Source of the DNA: Ochrobactrum teleogrylli
GTDB taxonomy: Bacteria > Pseudomonadota > Alphaproteobacteria > Rhizobiales > Rhizobiaceae
DNA length: 64,000 nucleotides
Reading direction: 5' to 3'
Assembly: GCF_006376685.1 (NCBI RefSeq)
Contig: NZ_VEWL01000009.1
Coordinates: 124,001-188,000 of the forward strand
Shown here piece by piece: positions 47,879-53,397 of the stretch (positions are counted from its first letter, which is position 1; each line of letters begins with the position of its first letter). A program made the position numbers and the translations under genes. The notes below the pieces were generated by a model. It was given only the letters and a program-made list of their open reading frames with translations. It was not told where the DNA came from and made no database searches.

Positions 47879-48481
47879 ATGACCACGATGCGGAAGCCAA
47901 ACCACGAGCAGGGGTTCTTAAACGGGCAGTTCCTGCTGGCCATGCCCGGCATGAGCGACGAGCGTTTCGCCCGGTCGGTGGTCTATATCTGCGCCCATTC
48001 GGACGAGGGCGCGATGGGCTTCATCATCAATCAACTGCAGCCGATCGGCTTCCCGGATATATTGCGCCAGATCGGCGTGATCGAAGAGGATGAGCTGATC
48101 ATTTTGCCCGAGCGCACGCAGCATATGATGGTGCGCAATGGCGGGCCGGTAGATACCTCGCGCGGTTTTGTGCTGCATTCCGACGATTACATGGTCGATT
48201 CCACCATGCCAGTCTCCGAAGATGTCTGCCTGACCGCAACGGTTGATATTCTGCGCGCCATTTATGGCGGCAAGGGCCCGTCACAGGTTTTGATGGCGCT
48301 GGGCTATTCCGGCTGGGCGCCGGGGCAGCTGGAAGCAGAACTTGCCGACAATGGCTGGCTCTGTTGCGATGCGCCGCTCGACATGCTTTTCGACAGCGAC
48401 ATCGAAGGCAAATATTCCCGCCTCATGATGCATATGGGCATCGACATGTCGCGACTAGTTTCCGACGCGGGGCATGCGTGA
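47879..48481 (+). CDS. YqgE/AlgH family protein
   Basis: A 200-residue protein of the YqgE family: [20 protein letters not shown] at the start, then [17 protein letters not shown] and [20 protein letters not shown]. The fold is known; the function is not (AlgH was once proposed as an alginate regulator). The ATG at 47879 has no strong Shine-Dalgarno; ATG 47888 is an alternative. The AT-rich stretch downstream marks the edge of the islet. Confidence 0.9.
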
Positions 48482-48626
48482 GGCTTTATCCACATTGTCG
48501 TGCGATTTTAGCAGGTATAAGTGGGTATGTCAGCTCGTCGTAGCCGTGTAACTTTACTCAGGATTCGCCCAAAATCACGGTGCCTCAATTCCTGTATTAT
48601 CTAGATATTCAAATATCTTTATGGCC

Positions 48627-48648
48627 ACTGACAGTACCGTCAGTTTTC
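48627..48648 (+). terminator. Weak terminator-like hairpin after yqgE
   Basis: The 6-base stem ACTGAC (48627-48632)/GTCAGT (48639-48644) with loop AGTACC is followed by a short TTTTC. It may end yqgE transcription and insulate the AT-rich orphan. Confidence 0.4.
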
Positions 48649-48706
48649 TCATCGTCCAATAATAATATAATTAAATTGTAAATATGATAAATAACAGGAG
48701 ATTATC

Positions 48707-49666
48707 ATGGCTAATTTTCAATGGGATCCCGCCGGGGATAATGTTTTCGACGATTCTTATGGGGGCAGCGTAGAATTATATCCAGGTGAAAATTTTAGTT
48801 TAGACCTACTTCCGACCGGCTCATTACTTGTTGATTCTTCTGGAGAATTACACTTACAAGATGTCACATATAGTAGTGCTGGAATAAATGTACTTAAATG
48901 GAGGACAAAGTCAACAATAAGAATTGTACGAGGAACATTGCAAATAGGTGTTTTGTCAGATGGCGAGCATCATAATAATATTTTGCATTTTGATAGTGAG
49001 TTGATTGAAGATAATTGGTTTATAGAAAATAATGGTTTAGTGAGGATTTTTGTAGATCATTTTGTAGCTGATGGAAAAAATAGATTTTTAATTGGGAAAG
49101 GAAAAAGCACTTTTATAGTTCGTCCGGAGATAAGTGCAAAATTTGATGGATTATTATTTCAGTTAATAGAGAAATCATTTTTATTAGTTGATTTTCGTAA
49201 TGGTTTTTCTGAAGAAAGCGATTCTTTATTTGAAGGGAACGTAAATATTTCTGTTATAAACGATGCTAAATACGAAATACATGCAAATAATATTATTTTT
49301 AAAGGTAATAATAGTGAGTTTACCAGATTTTACATAGGGCCTTCTCCTCGCAATACAGAAATATATACTGACAATAATGTATGTGATGCGGCTGTTGTGA
49401 TTAATGCAATTAATGTATTCCCGATTAATTTTGCCGATGACGTCCCTCCTGCGGTGAAATTTATCTTTAGAACAAAAGATAATGAGGGGAACCCAATTCG
49501 TAATACTGGAAAGTTAGTAATGACCGGGATTGGAATGGGTATGGCGGCCTTTTTCAAGAAAGGCGGATATGTATATCTTGATGATGAGAAAATTAGCGAC
49601 GTTGGAACGGACAGCAGATTCAATTATATCTTGTTGCAGGGAACACTGACGCTGAAATTGAAGTAA
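48707..49666 (+). CDS. Orphan AT-rich gene of unknown function (319 aa)
   Basis: I do not recognise this protein. It is 319 residues with no signal peptide or membrane segment. The sequence is dominated by short beta-strand-like runs with turns (SLLVDSSGELHLQDVTYSSA, STIRIVRGTLQIGVLSDGEH, YEIHANNIIFKGNNSEFTRF), suggesting a beta-helix or beta-sandwich. It ends in a Gly/Met/Lys-rich segment GKLVMTGIGMGMAAFFKKGG and a final strand. CAGGAG lies seven bases before the ATG and TATAAT is at 48666-48671. Composition is strikingly unlike the neighbours: bases 49021-49080 contain 16 G or C of 60, while 48301-48360 in yqgE contain 40 of 60. Acquisition by transfer is likely; no transposase or repeat was seen at its edges. 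Confidence 0.8.
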   Translation: MANFQWDPAGDNVFDDSYGGSVELYPGENFSLDLLPTGSLLVDSSGELHLQDVTYSSAGINVLKWRTKSTIRIVRGTLQIGVLSDGEHHNNILHFDSELIEDNWFIENNGLVRIFVDHFVADGKNRFLIGKGKSTFIVRPEISAKFDGLLFQLIEKSFLLVDFRNGFSEESDSLFEGNVNISVINDAKYEIHANNIIFKGNNSEFTRFYIGPSPRNTEIYTDNNVCDAAVVINAINVFPINFADDVPPAVKFIFRTKDNEGNPIRNTGKLVMTGIGMGMAAFFKKGGYVYLDDEKISDVGTDSRFNYILLQGTLTLKLK

Positions 49667-49789
49667 ACTATCAATATTGTCAGGCGTTACAAGGCATATG
49701 ACTGGAAATTAACCGTTAAATAGTCTTCGTAAATCACGGTTACTGGTTGAAAACGCGCGCCTTTTCAAATCAAGAATGCTGGCGGGGTT

Positions 49790-52687
49790 TTACGCCGCCG
49801 CTGCTTCCAGCTGTTCCTTGATCATACGGGTGGCGTCTTCGCGGCTGGTCGGCTGGCCGAACATGAAGCTCTGCACATATTCGCAGCCCATCTGGCGCAG
49901 CTGGAGCGCGTCGCTTTCGCTCTCCACACCTTCCGTCACAACCGCCAGCCCCAGATCATGCGCCATGCTGACGATGGAACGCAGCAGGGTGGTCTTCTGC
50001 GGCTGGTCGCCCTTCACGAAGGAGCGGTCGATCTTGATGATGTCGAACGGGAAGCGCGTCAGATAGGCGAGCGACGAATAGCCGGTGCCGAAATCATCCA
50101 GCGACAGGCCGATCCCCATCGTCTTGAGCCGCGCCAGCACATGGGCCGACTGCTCGGGATTTTCCATGAGGACGGATTCGGTCAGCTCCAGCTTCAGGCT
50201 GCCCGGATTGAGGTGGATGCGCGACAGTACGGACCGGACATCGTTGATGAGGTCTTGCCGGATGAGTTGCGTGGATGACAGGTTGACCGAGACGAACAGG
50301 TCGAGTTTCGGGAATTGTTCCTGCCAGGCGAAGAGGTCTTCGGCGGCGCGCTGCATGGCGAAAAGGCCAAGCTGCACGATCAGGCCGGAGTTTTCGGCAA
50401 TCGGAATGAATTCCGACGGCGAGATTGCGCCACGGCGCGGATGTTCCCAGCGCATTAGCGCTTCGAAACCGGCGATGGTGCCTTCCTCCAGTTTGACGAT
50501 CGGCTGATAGGCCATGCTGATTTCGTCGCGTTCGAGCGCGCGGCGCAGATCGGATTCCAGCTGCAGCTTGTCGCTGCCGATGGCGCGGAACGCCGGGCGG
50601 AACGGCTCGATCCGGTCGCCGCCAAAGCGCTTGGCCTGATACATGGCCAGTTCCGCGTCCTTCACGAAATCTTCTGCCGTGGTGGCGGTTTTCGTCCATG
50701 TGATGAGGCCGACGGAGGCGGTCAGGACGATCTCGCGCTTGGCGTAGGCAATGGGCGCGCGGGTGGCCTGACGCAGCGCTTCCGCAAAGGCCGCGATACG
50801 GCCGGGGTCGCTCTCTGATGCAAGCAGCAGCCCGAACTGGTCGGAAGACAGGCGCGACAGCGTGTCCTGCGGCTTCATCAATCGCGCCAGACGGCGCGAA
50901 ATGGTCAAAAGGATTGTATCGCCCGCCGACATGCCCAGACTGTCATTGACCTGTTTGAAGCGGTCGATATCGATCATGAACACGGTCGGATGCAGATTGC
51001 TTTCGCCGCGCGCCATGTTCATCACATTGCTGAGCCGGTCGAGGAAAAGCTCACGGTTGGGCAAGCCGGTCAGATTGTCGTGCACCGCATCGTGCAGCAG
51101 GCGTTCCTCGGCCTTCTTCTGCTCGGTAACGTTGACGAGCGTGCCGACGCAACGCACGACTTCGCCGTCCGAGCCGATCACCGGGCGGGCGCGCAGCGCA
51201 TACCAGTGGTAATGGCCGTCATTGGCGCGCATACGGAAAATCTGGCCGATGCGTCCGCGGCGGTTTTCCAGAATGGCGTCCAGCGTCGAACGAAAACGGT
51301 CACGGTCGTCGGAATGCATGACGGGCAGCCAGTTGCGCACCGGTCCCTGCAAGCTGCTTGCCGAATTGCCGAGCTGGTTGGCGATATCGGGCGTCGTAAC
51401 CACGCGGTCGCGCGGCACATCCCAGTCCCAGACGATATCGCCCGCGCCGATGACGGCAAGCGCCTGGCGTTCCATGTCGGACAGGAGCCCTTGCTGCAGC
51501 GCACCGCCCGCAAAGGCGTGCTGCATGACGGTAAAGCCGATCAGAAGCACGATCAGCACGAGGCCGCCGCCCAGCGCTGGCTGGACAATATCGTTGTCGA
51601 GACGGCCCGTGACCGCCATCCATGCGCCGAGCAGCCATATCAAGGTGAGAAGCCAGGCGGGTATCAGCATGACCGCCCTGTCATAGCCCTTCACCGCGAG
51701 ATAGCCGATAATCGCCACGCCGGAAACGACGGTCAGTGCGAGCGAGATGCGGGCGATGCCCGAGGCAATCGGCGGATCGAAAACCGCAACGCCTGCAAGC
51801 GCCAGCAGGCCCAGAACCCAAGTCACCGCGCCATAGCTGAAATGGTCGTGCCAGCGGTTGAGATTGAGATAGGCGAACAGGAATATCACCAGCGAGGCGG
51901 CAAGCGCCACCTCTGTGCCCGCGCGCCATATCTGCTCATTGCCGGGTGTGATTTCCATCAGCTTGTTCCAGAAGCCGAAATCGACGCAGATATAGGCGAG
52001 AACCGCCCATGCAAGCGCCGCCGTGGCTGGAAACAGCGAGGTGCCCTTGACGACGAAGAGAATGGTCAGGAACAGCGCCAGCAGGCCTGAAATGCCAAGC
52101 AGAATACCGCGATAGAGCGTATAGGAATTGACCGTGTCCTTATAGGCTTCCGGTTCCCACAGATAAAGCTGCGGCAGATTATGCGAGGAAAGCTCGGCGA
52201 CGAAGGTGACCACGCTGCCCGGATTGAGCGTGATGCGGAACACATCCGCATCGGCGCTTGGCTGGCGGTCGAGCGCGAAGCCTTCGCTGGGGGTGATCGA
52301 CGCAATACGCGGCGAGCCGAGATCCGGCCAGATAATGCCTGAACCGACAAGACGGAAATGCGGCGCGACGATCAGGCGGTCGATCTGCTGGTCGGTCGGA
52401 TTGGCGATGGAGAAAGCGGCCCAGTCGCCGGAGGCATTGCTGTTCTGATCGGCCTGCACTTCGATGCGGCGCACAATGCCATCGGGGCCGGGCGCGGTAG
52501 AAACCTGAACGCTCTCGCCCTTGTTGCGCAGGAGTTCGACGGCGCGCGACAGATCGAGAGCGGTGTCGTCCTTGGAAATCTTGATCGGTTCGATGGCAGA
52601 TGCATGAACGGTCGAAAAGGCCAGAAAGACGATCAGCGCGAGAAACCGCGCGGCGTTCTGGAATAGCTTTTCAGAAAAACCGCTCAC
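49790..52687 (-). CDS. 7TMR-DISM/PAS/GGDEF/EAL protein, probable cyclic-di-GMP phosphodiesterase
   Basis: A 965-residue sensor. A signal-like N-terminus (FLALIVFLAFSTVHASAIEP) and a periplasmic sensor (about 30-170) are followed by about seven membrane helices (180-390), a PAS domain (DWDVPRDRVVTTPDIANQLG), GGDEF and EAL domains. The GGDEF signature is degenerate, reading RLSSDQF instead of RGGDEF, so cyclase activity is unlikely. The EAL domain has its key residues: EALMRW, NLSSTQL, LELTESV, LDDFGTGYSSLAYL, IKIDRSF and EGVESE. It should hydrolyse cyclic-di-GMP. The GTG start overlaps the GNAT gene stop by four bases, so the acetyltransferase is translated just before it. Confidence 0.9.
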   Translation of the reverse strand: MSGFSEKLFQNAARFLALIVFLAFSTVHASAIEPIKISKDDTALDLSRAVELLRNKGESVQVSTAPGPDGIVRRIEVQADQNSNASGDWAAFSIANPTDQQIDRLIVAPHFRLVGSGIIWPDLGSPRIASITPSEGFALDRQPSADADVFRITLNPGSVVTFVAELSSHNLPQLYLWEPEAYKDTVNSYTLYRGILLGISGLLALFLTILFVVKGTSLFPATAALAWAVLAYICVDFGFWNKLMEITPGNEQIWRAGTEVALAASLVIFLFAYLNLNRWHDHFSYGAVTWVLGLLALAGVAVFDPPIASGIARISLALTVVSGVAIIGYLAVKGYDRAVMLIPAWLLTLIWLLGAWMAVTGRLDNDIVQPALGGGLVLIVLLIGFTVMQHAFAGGALQQGLLSDMERQALAVIGAGDIVWDWDVPRDRVVTTPDIANQLGNSASSLQGPVRNWLPVMHSDDRDRFRSTLDAILENRRGRIGQIFRMRANDGHYHWYALRARPVIGSDGEVVRCVGTLVNVTEQKKAEERLLHDAVHDNLTGLPNRELFLDRLSNVMNMARGESNLHPTVFMIDIDRFKQVNDSLGMSAGDTILLTISRRLARLMKPQDTLSRLSSDQFGLLLASESDPGRIAAFAEALRQATRAPIAYAKREIVLTASVGLITWTKTATTAEDFVKDAELAMYQAKRFGGDRIEPFRPAFRAIGSDKLQLESDLRRALERDEISMAYQPIVKLEEGTIAGFEALMRWEHPRRGAISPSEFIPIAENSGLIVQLGLFAMQRAAEDLFAWQEQFPKLDLFVSVNLSSTQLIRQDLINDVRSVLSRIHLNPGSLKLELTESVLMENPEQSAHVLARLKTMGIGLSLDDFGTGYSSLAYLTRFPFDIIKIDRSFVKGDQPQKTTLLRSIVSMAHDLGLAVVTEGVESESDALQLRQMGCEYVQSFMFGQPTSREDATRMIKEQLEAAAA

Positions 52688-53304: not shown

Positions 53305-53307
53305 CGG

Positions 53308-53397
53308 AGTTAGGGGAGTAGGGGAATAGGTGAGTAGGGGAATAGGAAAAACGAAATCTTCACGGCCACATACTCCCCTATTCCCTTATTCCCCTAC
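53308..53397. repeat. G-rich imperfect inverted repeat in the leader of the acetyltransferase gene
   Basis: Arms 53318-53344 (repeats of GTAGGGGAATA) and 53371-53397 (TACTCCCCTATTCCCTTATT and CCCCTAC) can pair at about 22 of 27 positions with a 26-base loop. The left arm is a tandem of AGGGGA(A/G)TA units with several runs of four G. It fills most of the 97-base gap between the M16 peptidase stop (53402) and the acetyltransferase start (53304). Confidence 0.75.

Follow-up and report, generated by a model that had tools for sequence, protein, structure and literature searches.

The window analyzed here is a stretch of 64,000 bases from Ochrobactrum teleogrylli (contig NZ_VEWL01000009.1, positions 124,001 to 188,000), and the element under study is an AT-rich islet with one gene, which lies between yqgE and a gene of the GGDEF-EAL type. 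The locus consists of the following features.

48482 to 49789, no strand assigned: AT-rich islet, by which the entire yqgE/GGDEF-EAL spacer is replaced (spacer comparison across same-genus genomes)
48707 to 49666, plus strand: islet gene of 319 residues with a conserved N-terminal motif, a variable middle and a conserved C-terminal third; predicted beta-solenoid family
47879 to 48481, plus strand: yqgE (AlgH-like, DUF179; Pfam PF02622, E 3.8e-47), core gene of the left flank
49790 to 52687, minus strand: convergent 7TMR-DISM/PAS/GGDEF/EAL gene (domain scan), core gene of the right flank

The islet gene contains 331 G or C in 960 bases (34.5%) and the whole islet 466 in 1308 (35.6%), with 37158 in 64000 (58.1%) for the window. 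A preliminary description of this DNA had placed the GC content far below that of the rest, and the exact counts agree with it: 16 of 60 bases at 49021-49080 are G or C, against 40 of 60 at 48301-48360 in yqgE. In detail, a profile of 960-base segments moved in 60-base steps over the window (mean 58.0%, standard deviation 3.7) reaches its minimum of 33.2% in the segment starting at 48601, and the lowest segment outside the islet has 50.0%. Third codon positions of the islet gene are 27% GC, compared with 76% and 78% in the two neighbors. Chance does not account for the 319-codon open frame, because the longest stop-free run in 2000 shuffled islets was 171 codons. Besides the islet gene, only one frame of at least 50 residues lies wholly within the islet, and it is an antisense frame of 97 residues.

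The presence or absence of the islet at the yqgE locus, a check proposed beforehand, proved to be patchy. Two of the 35 same-genus genomes carry it, 32 have short spacers, and one (G013, 72% complete) yielded no yqgE. The claim of a foreign composition is borne out as well, the islet being the lowest-GC stretch of the window. Recovery of yqgE in 34 genomes was achieved by DNA in 29 and by protein in five more; a sixth match of the protein search came from another genus and was not counted. The empty-site spacers of the 32 genomes measure 0 to 227 bases by script, the script's value of 301 for genome G006 being too large since yqgE is in two pieces there. These pieces overlap (L021; genome 69% complete), possibly through a sequencing error.

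The second carrier is Brucella haematophila CCUG 38531 (G016), with a full-length homologue at the same site, between yqgE and the GGDEF-EAL gene, and in the same direction. The islet proteins of the two carriers are 34-38% identical (range over aligners), whereas their yqgE proteins are 97% identical and their GGDEF-EAL proteins share 954 of 965 residues. The ends of the family proteins are conserved (the N-terminal motif and the C-terminal third), and the middle is highly variable and AT-richer. Conservation between the two carriers is highest at the second codon position. The leaders of the two islets do not match, because the sole DNA match between the islets begins at the ribosome site.

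When some 5.8 billion proteins were searched by words with the window protein, it matched only itself. A two-member profile retrieved three more relatives, that is, P0003 and P0004, with 304 residues each, and P0005, a truncated protein of 176 residues from Ochrobactrum haematophilum. A four-member profile added no others, and four full-length members were found in total. P0003 and P0004 are probably metagenomic, because they derive from ENA and JGI sources and lie on short contigs. P0005 is near-identical to P0002 apart from truncation at both ends, which reflects either real frameshifts or an assembly error. The gene had been described as an orphan; this stands in the sense that no described family fits, but it is not a singleton, because there is the same-locus homologue of B. 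haematophila and the two full-length ENA/JGI relatives.

At the genome level, credible matches were restricted to the window genome and G016. These two are the carriers among 394 genomes of the family; the order sample (1 of 397) and the class sample (1 of 190) each gave the window genome alone, and the phylum sample (2 of 398) gave the window genome and a noise match in G647, the four sets being overlapping samples. Among named genomes, a first scan found no relatives in 29 stretches, and a profile scan found one in 114, B. haematophila CCUG 38531. The plasmid collections gave no match to the family. Several candidate relatives were rejected as noise: G009 (E 0.0097) has three stops and lies on the opposite strand of a 426-residue frame, G647 (E 0.009) lies inside a 442-residue frame which we take to be a subtilisin-like protease, and G013 (E 0.2) falls within the frame of another gene, presumably enolase. 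The match in G001 is weak (E 0.54).

No fitting family was found for the four members in Pfam, NCBIfam, PADLOC or PHROGs, in keeping with the preliminary description, which had recognized none. The anti-phage defence models of PADLOC gave a single weak DrmC match (E 0.009), taken as noise; the insignificant Pfam matches were B_lectin (E 0.1) and Phage_T4_Gp30_7 (E 0.11), and three unnamed PHROGs appeared at E 0.08-0.29, each of all these in one of the four members. Sequence matches in the PDB were not significant either (BaiE, E 0.04 and 0.18; eS19, E 1.9; ZapA, E 2.1). Publications on MucR, O. haematophilum, yqgE islands and beta-helix orphans showed none on the islet gene in their titles and abstract openings. 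Single genes that are rare, AT-rich and horizontally acquired already form a known kind; the protein family itself appears undescribed in the four collections.

The fold of the window protein is predicted to be a beta-solenoid. The AlphaFold2 model of the relative P0003, of moderate confidence, is mainly beta and its best matches are beta-helices. Among the highest structural Z scores are domains of two-partner secretion (TPS), that is, beta-helices of the filamentous-haemagglutinin type (HMW1 13.4, EtpA 13.2, HxuA 12.1), aligned over 202-213 residues with a root-mean-square deviation of 3.6-4.1 and 9-12% identity, with no match in sequence. Unlike the TPS exoproteins (TpsA), all four members are devoid of a hydrophobic N-terminal stretch and thus of a Sec signal peptide as judged by Kyte-Doolittle hydropathy (no dedicated signal predictor was run), as had been stated earlier for the window protein. 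Also unlike TPS, no TpsB stands beside the islet gene in either carrier (only the neighboring genes were considered), and no TPS secretion-domain model of Pfam or NCBIfam matches the four members. Compared with the pectate lyase and tailspike beta-helices, the islet protein is shorter than the matched chains and has no sequence family match.

The junctions of the islet differ between the carriers. In the window genome, it takes up the whole interval from the yqgE stop codon to that of the EAL gene, in place of the spacer. Homologous exchange in both flanking genes would have this outcome, given a donor whose islet gene occupied that slot too. In B. haematophila the order is a normal spacer with 8-base repeats, eroded pieces of the EAL 3′ end, a degenerate yqgE fragment and then the islet gene, with the following remnants upstream of it.

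L004:8917-9074 and L004:8831-8922, B. haematophila: additional EAL 3′ end in eroded form, then degenerate yqgE fragment

The eroded EAL copy is 95-96% identical to the native one, and the yqgE fragment is about 69-74% identical to the yqgE of several species (best E 2e-11). A search of the 394 family genomes with this fragment yielded, apart from G016, 11 weak matches (E 0.002-0.01); two, those in G023 and G015, fall inside yqgE. The two pieces join at AGCGAC, a motif that also occurs in the native EAL gene and, at the corresponding position, in 19 of 34 yqgE genes. The arrangement suggests a recombination event, helped by homology but partly illegitimate, with DNA from another strain that likewise had the islet next to yqgE; such a process is known as homology-facilitated illegitimate recombination.

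As had been noted earlier, no mobility gene is visible. In detail, no integrase or transposase, tRNA, att site or target repeat was seen in the islet, the whole window has no tRNA, and no integrase was recognized by eye among the open reading frames listed beside either islet. The exact repeat pair AAATCACGGT (48572 and 49731), which spans the gene, has 10 bases, a size expected by chance. A mobile element or integrative island was rejected on these grounds. The transfer route was probably recombination in the conserved flanks.

Trees built from yqgE and from the EAL 3′ end place the carriers inside one group of five species, though not as sisters. G016 groups with an empty-site species in the EAL tree (100/96), and none of 200 bootstrap trees united the carriers. 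A label test on the trees (500 of 500 shuffles as low) is uninformative, because there are only two carrier rows. Both trees are also compatible with a single insertion in the ancestor of the five-species group followed by several losses; the large difference between the two islet proteins speaks against it.

At slightly better than even odds (about 0.55), the locus is a one-gene accessory islet exchanged at a fixed slot, which encodes a lineage-restricted beta-solenoid with a binding role. Strains of the Ochrobactrum/Brucella type would exchange the islet by homologous recombination in yqgE and in the GGDEF-EAL gene, some exchanges being partly illegitimate, and a mobility gene would not be needed. 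The product would be a lineage-restricted, non-Sec protein, and its constant ends with strongly varying central coils would suit a scaffold that binds, through its middle, a partner that changes; a surface glycan or a component of a phage or competitor are candidates. The partner and the location are guesses, as is the binding role, which is read from the shape of the variation. As a less probable reading, the slot may be a polymorphic recognition locus, empty in most species and otherwise occupied by highly divergent alleles of a hitherto undescribed beta-solenoid protein used in contact with phages, competitors or hosts; in such a locus, restricted to the Ochrobactrum/Brucella type, the ends would be constant, the middle coils diversifying and the alleles swapped by recombination in the flanks.

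Several points weigh against this interpretation of an exchanged beta-solenoid islet. A donor carrying both flanks was not seen, and the site context covers the two carriers, not P0003 and P0004. The parent of the yqgE fragment was not identified, because the yqgE of G016 itself has AGTGAC in place of AGCGAC. The contrast between front and back of the protein could stem from C-terminal recombination rather than selection. As for the fold, the beta-helix suggested in the preliminary description is favored by the P0003 model and not by that of the window protein itself, which is poor (predicted local distance difference test score 51.7), and both models were built from only four sequences. Foldseek gave no match at E ≤0.001 in the PDB or viral libraries, the best row being an IgA1 protease autotransporter (E 8.7e-3). 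The best Z of 13.4 is about the level at which the tool warns of a merely common arrangement for repeats, and the list of structural matches mixes adhesin, lyase and tailspike beta-helices.

Three rival accounts each have something in their favor. A relic of a phage or prophage, with a tail-fibre or tailspike-like beta-helix left after the loss of the element, is unlikely: neither P0001 nor P0003 had a tblastn match in 50,697 phage records, no match in viral contigs was confirmed (0 of 107 and 0 of 4 pattern stretches), and no PHROG fell below E 0.08 for the four members. The four scanned neighbors are not phage families, and the absence of tRNA from the window and of a recognizable integrase beside either islet points the same way. 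The TPS domains among the top Z scores and the autotransporter in the best Foldseek row would suit a beta-helix adhesin module, secreted or at the surface, of autotransporter or TPS type and now apart from its translocator. This origin is nevertheless improbable, as none of the four members has the N-terminal hydrophobic segment, the islet has no second gene for a transporter, no Pfam haemagglutinin or autotransporter model matches, and the Z gap to the lyases is small.

It is similarly doubtful that the islet is a decaying acquisition without function, that is, junk DNA whose frame is still unbroken. Its rarity, the eroded pieces adjoining it in B. haematophila and the truncation of P0005 relative to P0002 are in line with decay, but the family has four full-length members in which the start, the end and the C-terminal third are conserved, conservation between the carriers is strongest at codon position 2, and the differences of P0005 could be an assembly error.

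On the reading of an exchanged accessory islet, the locus is a compact case of a gene far more divergent than its neighbors yet retained in a single place, and its junction in B. haematophila hints at a way for such genes to move without a mobility gene. Should the variable middle serve for binding, the locus would represent a small, new recognition system in a genus with important pathogens. The H-NS-like MucR binds foreign DNA in Brucella, with chromatin immunoprecipitation peaks reported in 26 of 38 genomic islands of B. abortus (PMC10746212). These islands are AT-rich foreign DNA in the same genus as the islet but belong to B. abortus 2308. Since MucR binds foreign DNA in the genus, silencing of the islet gene is plausible by analogy.

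The leader of the islet gene contains the following signals.

48627 to 48644, plus strand: weak terminator-like hairpin with a T-rich tail between yqgE and the islet gene (terminator scan)
48666 to 48671, plus strand: TATAAT, possible -10 box with no recognized -35 (sequence read and consensus scan)
48695 to 48700, plus strand: CAGGAG, Shine-Dalgarno-like, preceding the ATG at 48707

The good Shine-Dalgarno and the upstream TATAAT of the preliminary description were both located. The consensus scan gave 13 promoter-like sites in 48400-49900, compared with 5.8 (standard deviation 2.5) in shuffles, and zero promoter-like pairs on the plus strand of the 225-base leader upstream of the gene. Terminator-like sites numbered two, with 1.0 expected from shuffles; the hairpin has a fold z of -1.58, and 15 of 200 shuffles fold equally well. 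An Rfam scan of the window at gathering scores gave no match.

A leader piece of 26 bases at the 3′ side of the islet (49721-49746) has a 96% match in another species (G005:C146:23646-23671), located after a gene which we take to be regulator-like and before a presumably amidohydrolase-like gene. Its core has no second copy in the window at up to three mismatches, and the rest of the genome holds three copies with three mismatches, versus one in the reversed control. Further leader matches (84% over 32 bases) occur in eight genomes, including that of the window.

At least two 8-base units of the type CCCTACTG or CCCTATTC were present in the yqgE/EAL spacer of 6 of the 32 empty-site genomes, with up to 14 copies in G012; B. 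haematophila has 11. Such units were seen after yqgE at L016, L017 and L019, where visible inverted partners could form a hairpin, and the window has an array of comparable 8-base units at 53306-53346.
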